26,182 nucleotides of DNA from a virus, in the IMG/VR virus record IMGVR_UViG_3300025030_000381, positions 1 through 26,182 of that record; one strand, written 5' to 3'. The notes below the pieces were generated by a model, which searched no databases, was not told where the DNA came from, and worked only from the letters and a program-made list of their open reading frames with translations. Shown here in pieces: positions 4,805 to 21,039 of the stretch (its first letter is position 1; each line of letters begins with the position of its first letter). The translations under genes were made by a program, and so were the position numbers.

Positions 4805-5982
4805 GTCGGCGTCAGTTCGCAACTGCCTCCCTCGGCACAAGGACTATACTGTTTGGCATCGTAAGAACCGCCGCCACCAGAATTGACATGTCCGTTGCAA
4901 GCTAAATCATTTGCCAAGGTTGGCGGGCTGTTGCATTGATACCTAGCAGTATCTTCAACGGCATAAAAAAATAAATGAGTATTCCAGTCGTAATCACAAG
5001 CATATTTTTGGCCTAAACTAAGGCCGGGTTCAGAAAGAATAGGGCGCGTATGCCGATAATCTATGATAACTGCCCATACGACCCATTGAGTATCAGTGCC
5101 GTTGGCTACTAGCTGCAAAGTCGCATACCAGTACCAACCAGGATACCCTGGAACGCCAAACTTGGGTGTGTTCCACATACAAGAGTTGCCGAGCGTGGGT
5201 ATCAAAATCCAGCCTGCGGGGTTTTTGAGTTCTTCTATAGCTGCGGCAACTACCGCTTGCTCAGTGCAATTCCCGCAAGGAGTTATAGTGCCGGAAAAAA
5301 CAGCCGTATAGTATCGGGGAGTTACTCCAAGATGGCTCCAGGCAACAATCGCAGAACCATCATATCCGCTGTTTCCGAAAGGAAAACCACAGCCGGTAAC
5401 GATATTATCATTGGGTATGGCCGATGTACTTCCAGCCTCACACCAAGCGGGTGTAATTTCGTATGCCGTTCCAGGGGCATATCCAGCAGTAAAGAGACCC
5501 GCTCCTCCGCCTGAAGCTCCTGCACTTATTAATAACTCTCTTGTAGCCGACGGTCCTAAAAGAGAGCCGGAAAGAAATAAAGTATTACTGCCTGAACATA
5601 TCGGAAATTCGGCTGACCAGATGCAGTTAGTCTCAGAAACCAAAGGCAGTGTCCAGGTATTATTCACCTCAGCAAAACAAGCAGGATACCCACTACAAAC
5701 TATCACGTCAGAAAAAGTTATGGTTATGTTTTCACTTATCCCGCCTTGATCTATACCGCTACAGGCACAAAGGCATCTGGAACACTGCTCACAACAGGTT
5801 CTTGTTCCTTGACATCCCCGTTTGGCTTTCGTCTGGTTAGGCGTATCGCAATGCCTGGCGAACATGCGGTAATAATAATCGTTTTCCGGCGGTGTGAGGG
5901 GGTCTCCGCATTCCTTTGGGTCGCCAGCGGCAACGTACTGTTCCCAAGTCGCCACCGCATAAGATGTATAATAATCAGACAT
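4798..5982 (-). CDS. Cysteine-rich putative tail-tip/receptor-binding protein
   Basis: A 394-residue protein with 23 cysteines, exceptional for a phage structural protein. A dense cluster lies at residues 57-74 (C57, C63, C64, C67, C70, C72, C74), with others spaced through a Gly/Ser/Thr/aromatic beta-type sequence to the C-terminus. No signal peptide is visible. It is the second-to-last late gene, downstream of two minor tail proteins, where receptor-binding or tail-tip proteins lie in siphoviruses. The cysteines could bind metal or form disulfides in the extracellular virion. The start at 5982 has a weak CGAG ribosome site, and the copy of the GC-rich repeat lies 10 bp upstream. No family is recognised. 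Confidence 0.6.
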   Translation of the reverse strand: MSDYYTSYAVATWEQYVAAGDPKECGDPLTPPENDYYYRMFARHCDTPNQTKAKRGCQGTRTCCEQCSRCLCACSGIDQGGISENITITFSDVIVCSGYPACFAEVNNTWTLPLVSETNCIWSAEFPICSGSNTLFLSGSLLGPSATRELLISAGASGGGAGLFTAGYAPGTAYEITPAWCEAGSTSAIPNDNIVTGCGFPFGNSGYDGSAIVAWSHLGVTPRYYTAVFSGTITPCGNCTEQAVVAAAIEELKNPAGWILIPTLGNSCMWNTPKFGVPGYPGWYWYATLQLVANGTDTQWVVWAVIIDYRHTRPILSEPGLSLGQKYACDYDWNTHLFFYAVEDTARYQCNSPPTLANDLACNGHVNSGGGGSYDAKQYSPCAEGGSCELTPTW

Positions 5983-7714: not shown

Positions 7715-9415
7715 TTATTCCGCAAGAGTCAAAACGCTTGTACCTTCGCCGCTTCCCATCTTGGCATACATTCTTTCCAGTACTTCTTTTACCTGCTCGG
7801 TGATCTTAAGATTTCCATCCTGGAGTTTTATTTGATCCTGATTGTCCTTATGCAACTGTGCGTAAGGATCAGAATAGCCAGGGGCCCTGGACATCATCCG
7901 GGATTCCGTTGCTCGAAGTTCACTAAATCTATCTGCCGGAGCGGCGGTCTCCGCTTGGTCGCTAATTATTTGCTGCTGCTTCAAAGCGAACTTCAGTTGA
8001 GTCGCTTCCATCACCTCAGAGCCTAACCGTTGGGCCTCAATCATGGCCTCTTGATATTCTACAGCTAATAATGCCAACTCTTTATCGAGGCCGGTTTTGG
8101 TTATATTAATCCACAGATTGCTGATCTCGCCGAAAAGACCTTTGGTGCTGTCCAGCCGTTCCTTGGCCAGGGCTTCCGTCTGCTTACGCTGTTCGTCTTG
8201 TTCCTTATCGGCATATTTTTTACGGATACCATACAGCTCCCATTGGAGCATCTCTTCTAATATCTTGGTATTGTCACCGGCCTCCTCAGCCGCCTCAATT
8301 TGATTTTTATATTTTAGTTTGACGGTTTCTTCTTCTTCCTCCATCCCTTCTTTCAAAATCTTAATTTTTAGTTGTTCCAGATCACGTAAATGCACTGCCT
8401 CTTTCGCCGAGGCCTCCGAGTCTGATTTGCCCGGCGGTGGCGTCTGCGGCCCTGATGGTCCGCCCGCGAACAGACCGGCTAATAGCCGCTCGTCACTTAC
8501 CAGCGATTCTCTGGTGCTGAGCTGGTCCAGTCTTTCTTCATAACCTATTAATCCAAGGGTAAGAAAATCCATCAATTTTGCGTTCGCATATATAGCTTTG
8601 TTTGCCAGCCAACCTAGATGTTCGCCAGTCCAATAAATACCCCGGCCTAAATACAAAAATCCCTTGGCAAGAATACCAACGATCTGAAGAGAATTAGTTA
8701 GAGCCTCTGAATCCTTTTTGATCCAGTCCGTGAATTCCACGACTACGGGCATTAATTGATCGCCCAATGTTTCCTTTAGGTCGCCAATGGTATTTTTAAA
8801 TTGCTCCAATTTACCGCTGTCGGTTTGAGCTTCCCCGGTGGCCAGGCTAAAATTATCGGCACCAATACGCAGCAAAGCATTGAATTTTTCCTGGGGACTC
8901 AGCGTCTCAGCAAGAACTATGCCGAAACGTTTGAGCTGAGATGTATTTCCCATTGCAGCCTTGGCCACTAATCGCATAGATGCCTCTAGGTCCATCTTAT
9001 ACGCCCGGGAAAGCCCGATGGCCGCAACTGTGGCGTCCTGCAGCTGCTGGCCGGAGAGTTTGCCCATACTCGCTCCCAGAGCCATTATTCCCAGAACAAC
9101 CTCATCGTCTATAATCGTTTGTTTCTGGATTCCAGCAGCAAACTTTTTCATATCATCAACGGCAGCTTGCCCGCCGGCGCCTAACAGATTCAAGGCATCA
9201 GATAGATTACGAACTGCTTGTTCTTGCTTGCCAAAAGCAGTTATGGATTCCCGGACCAGATTGACTAAGGCGTATATGCCCAATCCCCCTAGCGCTAAAT
9301 TACGCATGCTGGTTAATTGCTGGCTCAGACCGCTAAGCCCCTGCCCCACGGAGGCAAAGGCCCGCGGCGTCTGATTCTGTGCAGCTATAACAACATCCAG
9401 TTGACGCTTAGCCAT
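7715..9415 (-). CDS. Tail tape measure protein (short)
   Basis: A 566-residue protein. The N-terminal part fits phage tape measures: the MAKRQLDVVIAAQNQT opening, a hydrophobic segment at about 40-60, and the run DDEVVLGIMALGASMGKLSG then LSRAYKMDLEASMRLVAKAA. A second hydrophobic stretch lies near 245-262, and a long Glu/Lys-rich coiled coil at about 340-460. It is short for the family (lambda H is 853). At the usual 0.15 nm per residue this predicts a tail of about 85 nm. ATG 9415 follows directly on the GT-frame stop (TAAAATG) and has GGTGG 8 bases upstream; a GTG at 9427 would add 4 residues. Location right after G/GT supports the call. Confidence 0.88.
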   Translation of the reverse strand: MAKRQLDVVIAAQNQTPRAFASVGQGLSGLSQQLTSMRNLALGGLGIYALVNLVRESITAFGKQEQAVRNLSDALNLLGAGGQAAVDDMKKFAAGIQKQTIIDDEVVLGIMALGASMGKLSGQQLQDATVAAIGLSRAYKMDLEASMRLVAKAAMGNTSQLKRFGIVLAETLSPQEKFNALLRIGADNFSLATGEAQTDSGKLEQFKNTIGDLKETLGDQLMPVVVEFTDWIKKDSEALTNSLQIVGILAKGFLYLGRGIYWTGEHLGWLANKAIYANAKLMDFLTLGLIGYEERLDQLSTRESLVSDERLLAGLFAGGPSGPQTPPPGKSDSEASAKEAVHLRDLEQLKIKILKEGMEEEEETVKLKYKNQIEAAEEAGDNTKILEEMLQWELYGIRKKYADKEQDEQRKQTEALAKERLDSTKGLFGEISNLWINITKTGLDKELALLAVEYQEAMIEAQRLGSEVMEATQLKFALKQQQIISDQAETAAPADRFSELRATESRMMSRAPGYSDPYAQLHKDNQDQIKLQDGNLKITEQVKEVLERMYAKMGSGEGTSVLTLAE

Positions 9416-9416
9416 T

Positions 9417-10108
9417 TTATAATCCACCCAATCTCGCTTGGTGGCGAGCCTTCTCCGCCCAGACGAATCGACAATAGCTCAAGAACGCCTGAGCCTGGTC
9501 CAAGGCTCCGCCGGCTACCGGCGGCAAGCCCTTTTCGTATAGGTCGGCGTAATCCATAAATTCCCAAACCTCTGCCGGTATGCTTTTTCTGGGACATTGC
9601 TTCAACGAGAAACGCCCCGTTTGTTTACAACCATCGCAGCCGAACCCGCTGCACAGCGGACACTCGTACTCATAAGGCGACTGCTCGCTTACGGGGTCTT
9701 TACAGGTGTTGCATTTTCCGGGCCGGCAGATTTGCCCGAAGGAATAGGCGACTGCGATTCTAAGTTTTTTAGGTCCTCAATTCTGGGACTGTAGGACCAG
9801 GCCCGGTAAATTAATTCCTGAGCTTCGCTGAATTGCAGGACGTCCTCAACACGCTCGAGGTCATAAGCCAAGCCATTGGGCATGTTTTCCCATCCCACTA
9901 GAACGTTTTTGAGGATAGCAAATAATTTATCGATCCGCTGTACAGAGCTATTAAGCCGCTCCAGTTCGTCGAACTTCTCGGCCTGTCTGCGTTGTTCACG
10001 CCCGCTCAAAAACCGAAAGAAAAACCGGGGCTGTTTTTCCTGGGGTAATTTTTCATCGGTGCGCAGGACCAGACTGAATCTATCCTCGGTACTCAAAGGT
10101 AAGGGCAT
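9417..10108 (-). CDS. GT-like tail assembly chaperone made by -1 frameshift
   Basis: Join 10108-9764, then re-read base 9764 and continue to 9417. After A AAA AAC (9770-9764) the -1 frame is open without a stop for 115 codons, giving a 230-residue fusion: 115 residues of the G-like protein plus a T-like part. The T part has many cysteines: C128, C133, C136, then C150-x2-C153 and C158-x2-C161 (YECPLC, CDGCK), then C172, a zinc-finger-like region. A conserved-looking helical end follows (SIPAEVWEFMDYADLYEKG). In lambda, G and GT bind the tape measure and tail tube during tail assembly. The T frame has no start codon with a ribosome site of its own. Frameshifting efficiency is not known. Confidence 0.75.
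9689..10108 (-). CDS. G-like tail assembly chaperone (unshifted product)
   Basis: A 139-residue protein, the same size as lambda G (140). It has an N-terminal beta-type part (DRFSLVLRTDEKLP) and helical remainder (REQRRQAEKFDELERL). It lies between the tail tube and the tape measure, the fixed place of this chaperone. The start has AGGAG 8 bases upstream and forms a TAATG junction with the upstream 57-residue gene. It stops with TAA at 9689 unless ribosomes slip at codons 113-115. Confidence 0.85.
   Translation of the reverse strand: MPLPLSTEDRFSLVLRTDEKLPQEKQPRFFFRFLSGREQRRQAEKFDELERLNSSVQRIDKLFAILKNVLVGWENMPNGLAYDLERVEDVLQFSEAQELIYRAWSYSPRIEDLKNLESQSPIPSGKSAGPENATPVKTP
9764..9770 (-). promoter_or_regulatory. 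Slippery heptamer A AAA AAC for -1 frameshift
   Basis: On the minus strand the heptamer AAAAAAC is in the correct X XXY YYZ phase of the G frame (CTA AAA AAC, codons 113-115). A 7-bp stem, UUCGGGC with GCCCGGA, begins about 23 nt downstream, farther than usual. GAGG lies 4 nt upstream. The -1 frame continues uninterrupted into the T-like region. Confidence 0.75.
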
Positions 10109-10281
10109 TAGTTTTTCTCCTTATCGACAATCTTTTTAGACTCCGCCAAACCGTCCAGGTATCGCTGCTGCACTTCGGCGGGCAGCGAATCCCAGACACG
10201 CTGTATCTGTAAATCGGTGGCTTGTTCAAAGCCACCGTGATGTTTGCGAACGGCCTCTCTGATTTTAGATATGTTTTCCAC
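10108..10281 (-). CDS. Small helical tail-module protein
   Basis: A 57-residue protein not previously flagged because of its size: helical and charged, with the core IREAVRKHHGGFEQATDLQI followed by RVWDSLPAEVQQRYLDGL. It starts GTG 10281, with AGGAG 7 bases upstream; an in-frame ATG at 10287 is only 1 base from that AGGAG. Its TAA overlaps the G-like ATG (TAATG), so it is coupled to the chaperone. The mRNA leader (10289-10326) is a copy of the one ahead of the gene at 17684-18598. Its function is unknown; a chaperone or tail-completion role is suggested only by position. Confidence 0.75.
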   Translation of the reverse strand: MENISKIREAVRKHHGGFEQATDLQIQRVWDSLPAEVQQRYLDGLAESKKIVDKEKN

Positions 10282-10288
10282 AGTCATT

Positions 10289-10371: not shown

Positions 10372-11334
10372 TTAAGTTGCCGTCAAGGTCAGCTCGTCAT
10401 TGCCGGTGTCATGATCGCTTACATTCAATTGGGCCGTGATCTCCTCAGTCAATTTACCGTCCCGATCGCCTTCTTGCGGTGCCCGATGCTGTAACTTAGG
10501 AGCAGCCAGGGTCAGACCACGAGTGCCATTAGTAAAAGCCATGCTCAAGGCGGCTTCAGTTCCAACCAACCATAATCCATAAGCGTCATAGTAAGCAATT
10601 AATTCAGCCAAGGCATCCATGGTGATCACCGGATCACGTCCAGTGATCACATAAAAAGTCACTCCCTGGGCTTTTTGAATATCTTCCACCGGTGTGATTT
10701 TGTTGCCCATGTCCAAATTGAAAGTAGAAATCAGAGGATTGTAAGAACCGATGGTGAAAGTAACCGCGGCTGCTCTGATAGGCAATTGGGTATTTATGGT
10801 AGCTGTCGGCACAGCAACCGTGGTAGGTGGATTCCATACTCCGCTAAAATCAAATTCAAAAAAAACCGGCTTGCCGAATTCACCGCTGATCCGTACGTTA
10901 CCCATACAACCATGCAGTTGCTTATACATGCTGTTTGGATTATCCCCGCCGCCTTCGTGCATACCGATAGTAATAGTTTTCATAGCGGCGACGGAACTTA
11001 CCGGCGCGAAAACATTCGGAGGCCCAGCAGTTAAGCCAAAACCACAAGCTTGCAAAAGAATGGCCAACCCCGCGTCTATGGCTGCCGTGGCAGCGCCGGA
11101 AACAGCGCGCAATTCGGTTCGGAAAGTACAGGTTCCAACTCGTTCTCCGGAAACAGCAGGGAAATGACCCAAAGCTGCGCCCGAAGGTTCTCGTGATTGC
11201 GTACTATCAGTCAATTGCATAACCGGCTCAAAAGCCAAAACATGGGTAGCTCCGGCTACCAATGTACCCTTTTCTGTTTCCAGCGACACTTGTAAAACTT
11301 TAACTCTACCGAGTTTTGTTGCCGCATTTGCCAT
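10372..11334 (-). CDS. Major tail tube protein
   Basis: A 320-residue protein, largely beta-type, rich in Thr, Gly and Ala. It lies immediately upstream of the chaperone cluster (57-residue gene, G/GT) and downstream of the U-like terminator gene, the position of lambda V. Features include an N-terminal strand KVLQVSLETEKGT, a central TFTIGSYNP region (typical of tube-forming folds with an extended loop) and a C-terminal LTEEITAQLNVSD strand. It is longer than lambda V (246). The start has AGGA 7 bases upstream. High expression is expected. Confidence 0.8.
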   Translation of the reverse strand: MANAATKLGRVKVLQVSLETEKGTLVAGATHVLAFEPVMQLTDSTQSREPSGAALGHFPAVSGERVGTCTFRTELRAVSGAATAAIDAGLAILLQACGFGLTAGPPNVFAPVSSVAAMKTITIGMHEGGGDNPNSMYKQLHGCMGNVRISGEFGKPVFFEFDFSGVWNPPTTVAVPTATINTQLPIRAAAVTFTIGSYNPLISTFNLDMGNKITPVEDIQKAQGVTFYVITGRDPVITMDALAELIAYYDAYGLWLVGTEAALSMAFTNGTRGLTLAAPKLQHRAPQEGDRDGKLTEEITAQLNVSDHDTGNDELTLTAT

Positions 11335-14687: not shown

Positions 14688-15944
14688 TCAATATCCAACC
14701 TCAAGGGCTTCAATCACGGCTACCCAACGAACAGTATCTCCTGCAAAGGTAGTATCTCGAACCTGTATATCAAGAGCCTCATTGTTATTATCGGCAATGG
14801 CCTGAACTTCATAATCCGTATCGTCAGCCTCATACACATTTGTTATTGTTGGTGTTCCGAGAATCACGGTAGAATTGGCTCCATTTCTAGCAATAGCTCC
14901 CGTGATATTGTAAGCAAATCGTTTGCTGTCGTCATCTGTTTTACCAACAATCATAACCCTGAAATTGATAACCGTATTCGCAGGGATTTTGAATAGTTCT
15001 GTGGCCGTAACTCCATCAATAAAAAGACTGTACCAAGTCGCCACACTACTGCTATGCGTTATTTGGCGACGCATAACAACACGGGTAAATTGGGCATCTC
15101 CCCCTGCTGAAAAATATCCGGAGGCCGTGGCGAACAAATAGGTTATGAGCCTGGTTGAAGAAGCCCCACCTTCGGCATGAGAACCGAAACCGTTGGCTAA
15201 TGTGCCGTTGCCTTCGGCATGGGAACGAGTGCCAGTGGCTGTTGCACCATAACCTTCGGCATGAGCAGATTCACCGCTAGCTGTTGTATATCTACCTTCG
15301 GCATGAGCACCAGCACCGCTGGCTATTCCGAATAAGCCTTCAGCATGAGCATTCTCGTTATTAGCTGTTGTAGATGTACCTTCAGCATGGGAACGAATAC
15401 CACTGGCTGTTGTAGTGTCGCCTTCAGCGTGAGCAGAAGTCTGACTAGCCACTGTAAGATTGCCTTCAGCATGAGAACGAATGCCGCTGGCCGTTGTGGC
15501 ATTGCCTTCAGCGTGAGAAGATTCACCGCTAGCTATTGTACCCGTACCTTCAGCATGAGAATTAATGCCGCTGGCCGTACCGGTGCCGTCATTTGCGCCT
15601 GTTTCAATCCATTGAGAGGCCGTCTGGTCCCAGGACAATTTCAACCAAGTTTCAACGACAGCCCTATACCAATCTCCCCGGAGAGCAGTATTAGCATTGT
15701 CCTTAATTATTATTGAATTTCCGTTACCAATATCTTTGAGTACCAGAGTTAATATCTGACCGTCTTTAACCCCGTCAGCAATGGCCGTAGTGGCATCGCT
15801 GGTACGGGTTTGAAACGTTCCAGTAAGCGTAATCAGCACCACCGGCTGGTTATTATGCTGGATGGTGAAGTTGCTGGCACTGATAGTCTGCGTAGCAGCA
15901 GCGGCGATTTCGGCGGCGGTAATGTTATGAACGGGTATTTCCAT
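14688..15944 (-). CDS. Trimeric-type tail fibre with HAEG repeats
   Basis: A 418-residue protein. Residues 1-120 are an N-terminal attachment domain. Residues 126-265 are ten consecutive 14-residue repeats with the consensus G-x-x-S-H-A-E-G-x-x-T-x-A-S, a pattern known from the beta-roll (YadA-head-like) shafts of trimeric adhesins and phage fibres. Residues 266-418 form a beta-rich tip ending DTVRWVAVIEALEVGY. Receptor binding on the virion surface is likely. There is no strong ribosome site; its ATG lies inside the 3' end of the upstream cysteine-rich small gene (20-bp overlap), suggesting coupled translation. It sits among head-completion and early tail genes instead of at the tail-tip end. 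Confidence 0.82.
   Translation of the reverse strand: MEIPVHNITAAEIAAAATQTISASNFTIQHNNQPVVLITLTGTFQTRTSDATTAIADGVKDGQILTLVLKDIGNGNSIIIKDNANTALRGDWYRAVVETWLKLSWDQTASQWIETGANDGTGTASGINSHAEGTGTIASGESSHAEGNATTASGIRSHAEGNLTVASQTSAHAEGDTTTASGIRSHAEGTSTTANNENAHAEGLFGIASGAGAHAEGRYTTASGESAHAEGYGATATGTRSHAEGNGTLANGFGSHAEGGASSTRLITYLFATASGYFSAGGDAQFTRVVMRRQITHSSSVATWYSLFIDGVTATELFKIPANTVINFRVMIVGKTDDDSKRFAYNITGAIARNGANSTVILGTPTITNVYEADDTDYEVQAIADNNNEALDIQVRDTTFAGDTVRWVAVIEALEVGY
15150..15569. repeat. Ten tandem 42-bp coding repeats
   Basis: The DNA encodes ten 14-residue HAEG units with constant length and moderate sequence divergence. The core word (CT)TC(AG)GC(AG)TG on the plus strand recurs every 42 bp. 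Such arrays can expand or contract by recombination, changing shaft length. Confidence 0.85.
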
Positions 15945-18753: not shown

Positions 18754-21039
18754 TTAGGTGACACCATCGTTGTAAAACAGGCCACGATAATCGATAGCCT
18801 TGGCAACAACGCTATGGCGAACTGAAATCTTCAGATCGCCGGTGTCGAAGTCCGTCTCCGACTGGGTAACAGGGGTTTGCTCTTCTTCGAGGAACGCCAC
18901 CACGATGGTATCTACCAGGCTGGGATCAGCCGCCAAATACCAACCATTGGCATTGGCCGCATCCAGCCGAGCGTTGGCGACAACCTCAAGTCTGTTGCGC
19001 CAAATATTTTCAGCGGCGTTGTTCTTGGATGGATCAACCACAGAAGCAATCAACTGCTTCACCGTTCCGGAAAGAGCGATAGGACAGAGGATACTCTTGG
19101 GCTGAATATCCAGATAAGAGGCTCCACCAATACCCTTCTGTACACCCATGGCCGCAGCCCCGACATTCAGAGTAGCAACACTGGGAACGGCACCGGCAGT
19201 GATGTAGTTTTTGTGCGTGGCCGCATCGAAGAGGGCAATGCTATCCTGACCCAAGGCGGCATTAGCCGTCAAAATAGCAAAAGCCACATCGTCCTCTTTT
19301 CGCTTGGCCGCGGGTCCCAGCATCTGGGGCAGTCGACTGAAGGCATTCAGATCGTCATTCACCATGGTCCGGCGAGTGATCCGAATCCCTTTAGCGAACT
19401 CAGCGAGAGTTGCCACTTCTCGATTTTCCGTCAGGGTTCCGTATTCGACCGGGCCACCCTCGTCTCGCTCCACCAAGTCAGGAGCCTCGCTCAAAGATAC
19501 CAGAGAGAATTGCTTATAATCCGGAACCAAGAGTCTGGAACAGAACATCGGCCACTGAGTAGGAGCTTCGGCGTAAGCCGCTCGAAGGTTTTTATTCAGG
19601 GCATTGGCCAGGATATACGGAAAATCGCTGGTCCCCTGGGCTAAGGCCACTATGCCGTACTGCCCCTGCAGCTTGTGCGGATTGAGCAACAATTCAGCGA
19701 TTTGAACCCGGCCCATGTAGTCCACTCCCGGCACGCCAAGAGCAGCCAGGTAATGACGGCCCATGTCCAGCAGGGAGAGCTTGCGGAACTGTAGAGCCCG
19801 TTCGTGGGGCTGGCGGACAACAGTTTTGCCGGCGGTATCGCGGACGGCAATGCCGGTATCCTTGTCCAGTTCGATCATTCGCGCTCCGGAACGAAGTATG
19901 ATGGCATCGGTGATACCATCTGCCAGCGTGGAGCGGTTGAGATCCTCGCCCACGCCAATCCGCGGGCCAGCGCCTACCGGCAGTGGTTGATGGGTTTTAG
20001 CCAACTCCACCAGTTCTGTAGCATGAGCCAACGTCACGCCGCGATCGCAAAGGCCTTGAGCCCAGGCAGTATCCAAAGCGTTTAGTTTGGCTAACGCCAT
20101 AATGCCTTCACGCCGGGTGCGGTCAGCCACCAGAGCCTTCGCTGCGGCTTCGCCCGCCATGATCTCTTCACCGACGGTGCCCACTTCATCGGCTACGACC
20201 GTTCCTGAGTGAGCGGTATCGGTATTCTTGCCGGCACCCTTGCTTTCACCATCAGAAAGGGCATCCGCTGCAGCCTTCTGATCGCCGCTTAATCCTTTCC
20301 AGAAAAGGATGGCGGTTTCCAGACTGGCATCAGCCGCTAAGCCGACACTTTCCAAATAGGTCCTCAATTTCTTATTCATAATACACTCCTTCAAAAATGT
20401 GAGCGATGGTCCTTCATCGCTACTGTTGCTAGACAAGAGACCCCCTGGGTTAGCCCCTGGGTCTCCAACAAAATCCACAGCTAAAACATCCTTAACTCTG
20501 CCGGCCGGCGGCAAAGATTGATCATTTTCATCGGTGCGGGGTTCGTAATCATCTGGGATGAAAACAATGGAAAGGCCGATCACTTCAGGGTCTTCCTGAG
20601 CGATTCCCATCAGGTATTTTCTAAGGTCCCCATTCGGACCGTCTGCTGCATAATTGCCAAATTGAATGTCGCCACGTACCTGATAATCATCAACACGAGC
20701 ATTCTTGGCCCGCCCCAACATGACTTCGATCGGATCTGTTCCACCACCAAACATTCCCCCCGAATTTTTCGGATGAGTCAGTCGACACTTAACGCCTTTG
20801 GTGTGTCCATTGATCGCCTCGGCCACCTGTTTGAGCATCACATCGTCCACATCAAAGCCGTGACCTATTGCCGGACCTCTGGTAATAATTGAAACATTGC
20901 TAAGCACCCCTTTCTCTATATCAACTTCAAACTCACCAGCCACCAAAGCCTTAACAGTAGAAAGCCTTATGGCTGTATCGAGTGCCGCAGTCAACGCCCT
21001 ATTTTTTACTTGTTGTTTGTGCCGTCTGCGATTTGCCAT
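18754..21039 (-). CDS. Prohead protease - scaffold - major capsid fusion
   Basis: A 761-residue protein. Residues 30-200 form an HK97-type prohead protease with likely catalytic H89 (RLTHP) and S157 (GLSIVF). Residues 221-420 are Ala/Glu-rich and probably scaffold-like. Residues 470-761 match the Mu gpT-like major head family (FPYILANALNKNLRAAYAEA, RITRRTMVNDD). Such fusions are known in phage genomes. ATG 21039 overlaps the portal stop (TAATG), with AGGAG 8 bases upstream. An internal ATG at 20379 (Met221) is preceded by AAGGAG at 6-7 bases and would give a 541-residue protease-free precursor. The protease would then cut out scaffold during maturation. The fusion means every full-length copy carries a protease. 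Confidence 0.88.
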   Translation of the reverse strand: MANRRRHKQQVKNRALTAALDTAIRLSTVKALVAGEFEVDIEKGVLSNVSIITRGPAIGHGFDVDDVMLKQVAEAINGHTKGVKCRLTHPKNSGGMFGGGTDPIEVMLGRAKNARVDDYQVRGDIQFGNYAADGPNGDLRKYLMGIAQEDPEVIGLSIVFIPDDYEPRTDENDQSLPPAGRVKDVLAVDFVGDPGANPGGLLSSNSSDEGPSLTFLKECIMNKKLRTYLESVGLAADASLETAILFWKGLSGDQKAAADALSDGESKGAGKNTDTAHSGTVVADEVGTVGEEIMAGEAAAKALVADRTRREGIMALAKLNALDTAWAQGLCDRGVTLAHATELVELAKTHQPLPVGAGPRIGVGEDLNRSTLADGITDAIILRSGARMIELDKDTGIAVRDTAGKTVVRQPHERALQFRKLSLLDMGRHYLAALGVPGVDYMGRVQIAELLLNPHKLQGQYGIVALAQGTSDFPYILANALNKNLRAAYAEAPTQWPMFCSRLLVPDYKQFSLVSLSEAPDLVERDEGGPVEYGTLTENREVATLAEFAKGIRITRRTMVNDDLNAFSRLPQMLGPAAKRKEDDVAFAILTANAALGQDSIALFDAATHKNYITAGAVPSVATLNVGAAAMGVQKGIGGASYLDIQPKSILCPIALSGTVKQLIASVVDPSKNNAAENIWRNRLEVVANARLDAANANGWYLAADPSLVDTIVVAFLEEEQTPVTQSETDFDTGDLKISVRHSVVAKAIDYRGLFYNDGVT
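20379..20394 (-). promoter_or_regulatory. Internal ribosome binding site and start for scaffold-capsid
   Basis: On the minus strand GAAGGAG lies 6 bases upstream of ATG 20379, in frame with the fusion ORF (codon 221). It is better than many genuine starts in this window. Its position exactly between protease and scaffold domains makes chance unlikely. Confidence 0.65.

Follow-up and report, generated by a model that had tools for sequence, protein, structure and literature searches.

A conserved slippery heptamer in a lambda G-like tail gene predicts a cysteine-rich frameshift extension

In phage lambda, most ribosomes that translate the tail assembly chaperone gene yield gpG and a minority yield gpGT, of which the G part binds the tape measure protein and the T part binds the tail tube protein (PMC5009743). 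For HCTV-2, the reported g-t shift site is A_AAA_AAC, a heptamer far less prone to shifting in E. coli than A_AAA_AAG (PMC5009743). AAAAAAC has also been reported for the tail chaperone of phage Loki (PMC5313236). In lambda (gpG/gpGT), HK97, N15, and phiC31, the gene lies between those for the tail tube and the tape measure protein and carries a -1 slippery heptamer toward the 3' end of G, with a T frame that remains open to approximately the start of the tape measure gene. The locus described here has the same arrangement and, like gp12/gp13 of Acinetobacter phage Loki, a chaperone gene with the slippery motif AAAAAAC.

The analyzed window, i.e., the complete 26,182-base virus record IMGVR_UViG_3300025030_000381, encodes its structural genes on the minus strand. 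The features relevant for this study were the following:

10372..11334, minus strand: putative tail tube protein and presumed partner of T, assigned by position and by a match to phrog_290 (minor tail protein; E 5e-9)
10108..9689, minus strand: G-like tail assembly chaperone, zero-frame product of 139 aa; open reading frame between the tail-tube-like gene and the tape measure gene
9770..9764, minus strand: A AAA AAC, the in-phase slippery heptamer of G, read from the sequence; a slippery heptamer occupies this place in 44/44 and 20/20 loci
9417..9764, minus strand: T extension in the -1 frame, 115 codons plus stop, read from the sequence; conserved family A9, with dN/dS of relatives
9594..9728, minus strand: eight-cysteine block of T (residues 13-57), defined by conserved cysteine columns
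9627..9662, minus strand: CPLCSGFGCDGC knuckle of T (residues 35-46), with predicted strands on both sides
9495..9530, minus strand: GLPPVAGGALDQ motif of T (residues 79-90), nearly invariant in A9 and located between helices in the predicted model
7715..9415, minus strand: tape measure protein, matching tape measure PHROGs; its ATG lies one base past the T stop

The position of the locus, between a tail-tube-like gene and the tape measure gene, corresponds to that of a lambda-type G/GT gene. In relatives, T was also followed by a long, mostly related open reading frame. A 59-aa open reading frame (10287..10108, minus strand) is situated between the tube and G genes, its TAA overlapping the ATG of G (TAATG), and a similar frame (IREAV..HGGFEQASD..I.RVW.SLPA....YL) precedes G in the relatives L002 and L009. 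Elsewhere among the structural genes, a 418-aa protein (15944..14688, minus strand) contains many SHAEG-type repeats with a weak match to the YadA head repeat, and a 761-aa protein (21039..18754, minus strand) matches both head protease and major capsid PHROGs and is an apparent fusion.

A Pfam search with G gave no match above the cut-off. A few relatives of G weakly matched tail assembly chaperone PHROGs (phrog_313, best E 1.1e-4). The AlphaFold model of G had a pLDDT of 87.8, and its top structural matches, although weak, were YqbN, the HK97 chaperone, and RBSTP2171 (Z 5.1-5.3), followed by a PICI-like ORF19 (Z 4.6) and others at 3.1 or less. These predictions are suggestive of a chaperone fold for G, without being conclusive.

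A first-pass annotation had proposed that a programmed -1 frameshift adds a cysteine-rich extension to G, with the heptamer in phase and the -1 frame open for 115 codons up to the tape measure ATG. Computation of the phase confirmed this layout: AAAAAAC occurs at offset 338 of the G open reading frame (338 mod 3 = 2), so that the zero frame reads CT(A AAA AAC). A shift to the -1 frame, in which base 9764 is read twice, would yield a fusion of 230 aa, 115 codons of which form the extension, with ...EDLKN|LRIAVAYSFGQICR as the predicted sequence across the junction. Two codons ahead of the heptamer, a TGA closes the -1 frame; past the heptamer, the frame ends at a TAA (9419..9417), which a single base separates from the tape measure ATG (start at 9415). 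The heptamer occurs 10 times in the window, vs 5.9 expected. Since it is common by itself, the case for frameshifting rests on its phase, the open frame, and the comparison with relatives.

A first scan retrieved L001, which is the same virus (99%), as well as a relative at 42% identity (L002); a first genome scan with two sequences found nothing. In L002, A AAT TTT occupies the place homologous to that of A AAA AAC in the window and T continues in the -1 frame. The slip site was again found at the same place in two loci reached through their tape measure genes, L009 (A AAA AAA) and L010 (G GGA AAA). A profile of the four T domains (window, L002, L009, and L010) then retrieved 48 viral loci and three MAG contigs. 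An in-phase X XXY YYZ heptamer was present at the site in all 44 loci analyzed, which encode 43 different T proteins, vs 10 of 5,647 other in-phase positions of the same G genes. In a wider, later scan, the best 80 of 134 relatives yielded, after removal of near-identical loci, 20 further loci, all with the heptamer (control 5/2,363); because the same family profile was used and many loci are mutually close, this set is not a wholly independent sample. With both sets pooled, 64 of 64 loci combined the heptamer with an open -1 frame, vs heptamers at 15 of 8,010 control positions. Homologues lacking the heptamer or with stops in the -1 frame would have spoken against the first-pass proposal, which this comparison instead supported. 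A scan of 385 genomes from the class to which the MAG of L071 belongs returned one true T, which was already known. One weak match in that scan (L079) reads as a RecR-like protein, and others, of 26-30 residues, were set aside on length only.

The fact that 64 loci drawn from different metagenomes, including two MAG contigs, share this split at one position argues against a sequencing error or a decayed gene, as does the strong purifying selection on T described below. Nothing specific favored this explanation, and its probability is close to negligible. Instead, an in-phase heptamer near the 3' end of G that is conserved in relatives is as expected for a lambda-type G/GT gene.

Heptamers among the relatives included A AAA AAC, A AAT TTT, G GGA AAA, A AAA AAA, and A AAA AAG, and the T tree requires at least seven changes of type. 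Maintenance of a slippery site while its letters and the encoded residues vary is the expected mark of selection for slippage. This diversity also bears on transcriptional slippage, by which RNA polymerase rather than the ribosome would reach the -1 frame on a run of A. Stretches of 7-9 A, in many cases eight or nine, are indeed present at the site in most relatives and are long enough for polymerase slippage, but the window has only six, and L002 (A AAT TTT) and L042/L046 (G GGA AAA) have retained a tandem-slip heptamer without a long A run. Joint slippage of two tRNAs accounts for all variants, whereas polymerase slippage does not, which makes the latter improbable. A -1 slip of the ribosome is almost certainly the means by which the virus makes a longer version of its chaperone, and support for the predicted frameshift has reached the limit of what sequence can provide.

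In close pairs of relatives, dN/dS was 0.02-0.21 for the T frame and about 0.8 or more for the remaining two frames of the same DNA. As in a lambda-type G/GT gene, the -1 frame is open to about the start of the tape measure gene and under selection as a protein. The earliest ATG, GTG, or TTG in the T frame of the window is a TTG at residue 54; all but one of the eight conserved cysteines precede this codon, and the cysteine domain can therefore not be made from an ordinary start. An independently started T gene whose frame overlap with G is incidental would agree with L002, L054, L062, and others, in which ATG, GTG, or TTG precedes the first cysteine. However, such a start is absent from 29 of the 44 loci of the first set (the window and 28 others), many T frames open at a TAA immediately adjoining the slip site, and none of the loci examined lacks the heptamer, so that a separate gene is very improbable. 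Low dN/dS and missing starts therefore indicate that T is selected as a protein and reachable mainly through G. Selection on T was thereby observed alongside the frame arrangement and its conservation. In L062 (about 4992-5007), G stops at a TGA right after the slip site, where T has ATG ATG; coupling of G and T by reinitiation is possible in this locus.

RNA structures around the site were compared with shuffled sequences. The first-pass annotation had placed a downstream stem at about 23 nt and suggested that another stimulator may act; neither proposal was supported. Folding of the 70 nt downstream gave z-scores of 0.23 in the window and -0.64 as the family mean, with values below -2 in 6 of 44 loci, and 104 nt downstream, analyzed in the window only, was ordinary (z -0.69), so that the stem does not exceed chance. 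In the 40 nt upstream, a hairpin that abuts the site (GGUCCU/AGGACC) gave z -1.1 in the window and a family mean of 0.0; neither flank exceeded shuffled sequences in the window or in the family average. An internal Shine-Dalgarno-like GAGG occurs 3-8 nt upstream of the site in the window, and its presence and spacing are not conserved. A PreQ1 riboswitch match over the site (9806..9755, minus strand), whose stem abuts the heptamer, was well below threshold (20.4 bits vs a cut-off of 39, E 0.19), not conserved, and probably due to chance. The low propensity of A_AAA_AAC for shifting in E. coli and the absence of a detected stimulator fit a low fraction of GT, without proving it.

The first-pass annotation had also described two CxxC pairs plus CNTC in the extension and proposed conservation of the cysteines as a check. 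T of the window indeed contains CNTC, CPLC, and CDGC, as well as C13, C57, and C98, and in the alignment of T domains eight cysteine columns were each occupied in 39-41 of 41 members. In the window and L002, the second of these columns holds a glycine, with a cysteine two residues further on (18 instead of 16), and the count of eight is thus kept. The T model (pLDDT 89) predicts strands at residues 31-34 and 51-54 that flank CPLCSGFGCDGC (CxxCxGxGCxxC), so that a hairpin would carry cysteines 35, 38, 43, and 46 at its tip; residues 13, 18, 21, and 57, presumably at its base, may form a second site. The eight cysteines fit two metal sites and T probably holds metal, most likely zinc, as read from the conservation of the cysteines and the predicted hairpin. 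The last third of T contains a GLPPVAGG.LDQ motif. In L073 (Alphaproteobacteria MAG, about 1451-2160), whose slip site A AAA AAC is followed at once by TGA, T lacks the CxxCxGxGCxxC knuckle and retains the other four cysteines, as the two-site layout predicts.

No Pfam family was found for the T family and no convincing match among 50,697 phage records. The T model had no structural relative in PDB or BFVD at E 0.001, a threshold beyond which a relative may still exist. Matches of T to PheRS were taken as a coincidence of CxxCxGxG, and those to phrog_25876 and to Bacillus and Synechococcus phage proteins were weak and confined to about the cysteine block. A literature search that covered open papers and little of the subscription literature found no cysteine- or zinc-bearing extension of a tail chaperone.

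In the proposed mechanism, most ribosomes would read G and stop at 9691..9689, while on A AAA AAC a minority, with two tRNAs, would slip back one base and enter the -1 frame. The resulting GT would consist of G plus the 115-residue T extension, predicted to be a small domain of its own with an N-terminal helix, the eight-cysteine block, and a helical end that includes GLPPVAGG.LDQ. Two metal ions would be bound, one by residues 35, 38, 43, and 46 at the tip of the beta hairpin and one by residues 13, 18, 21, and 57 at its base. If the analogy with lambda holds, the G parts would coat the tape measure protein and a few T domains would recruit tail-tube subunits, so that the rate of slippage would set the G:GT ratio. 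On the same analogy, GT may be made at a few percent and its T part may bind the tube protein. Slip rate, metal binding, and tail-tube binding are inferred. We assign a probability of roughly 0.86 to the reading that the locus is a lambda-type G/GT gene in which a minority of ribosomes slip to produce GT, whose T domain is probably a two-metal, tube-recruiting domain.

A -1 frameshift in a tail chaperone gene is known; the widespread cysteine-rich T domain described here is new. Tail chaperones thereby gain a large family of T domains that are encoded by frameshifting and lack annotation. Standard gene callers will miss or truncate these domains because the window and many relatives offer no ordinary start. 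The family also offers a naturally occurring set of alternative slippery heptamers at a single site, and its cysteine-rich T is a candidate for metal-dependent recruitment of the tube. A further reading, to which we give somewhat less than even odds, is that in this uncultivated tailed-phage lineage an unrelated two-metal module replaces the lambda-type T and tail assembly needs a metalloprotein that is made only by frameshifting; if so, this protein may be metal- or redox-responsive.

The T regions of lambda, N15, HK97, phiC31, and Loki, a small sample of five phages, contain 0-1 cysteine (zero in Loki) and no CxxC, in contrast to the eight conserved cysteines of T in the window. An hmmsearch with the T family gave no significant match to these five regions, and hhalign indicated no relation to those of lambda, N15, HK97, and L011 (probability 0.04, one aligned column). 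Membership of the lambda T domain, defined by homology to T of lambda, N15, or HK97, was not detected. Because no relation to lambda-type T is detectable, a role of T in tube binding rests on its position and on analogy. The frameshift could thus be real while the cysteine block serves binding of RNA or a host protein, or a redox switch, rather than tube recruitment. In addition to the lack of sequence relation to lambda T, the likeness of the knuckle sequence to cysteine motifs of DnaJ and anti-TRAP is in line with such a role, but the position between G and the tape measure gene matches the lambda arrangement, where T binds the tube protein, and expression depends on G, again as in lambda. 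A role other than tube recruitment is therefore considered unlikely, and recruitment of tube subunits is the preferred reading. With DnaJ-type CxxCxGxG modules and anti-TRAP, T of the window shares the CxxCxGxGCxxC-like spacing and a knuckle between two predicted strands. By contrast, the best structural match of the T model (Z = 2.7) was to another protein, and Pfam DnaJ_CXXCXGXG (PF00684) matched only one of 41 T members (E 0.058), short of the Pfam cut-off, and not that of the window. Three loci related through their tape measure genes (L018, L020, and L021) have, like the window, a -1 extension with two CxxC pairs after A AAA AAC, upstream of the tape measure gene. Their T sequences (CxxC...PPCxxC) differ from the window family in sequence and spacing, and the A9 profile gave no match in the L018 and L020 records; T of L020 matches phrog_680, labelled tape measure though only 98 positions long. 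Cysteines in T thus also occur outside the A9 family.
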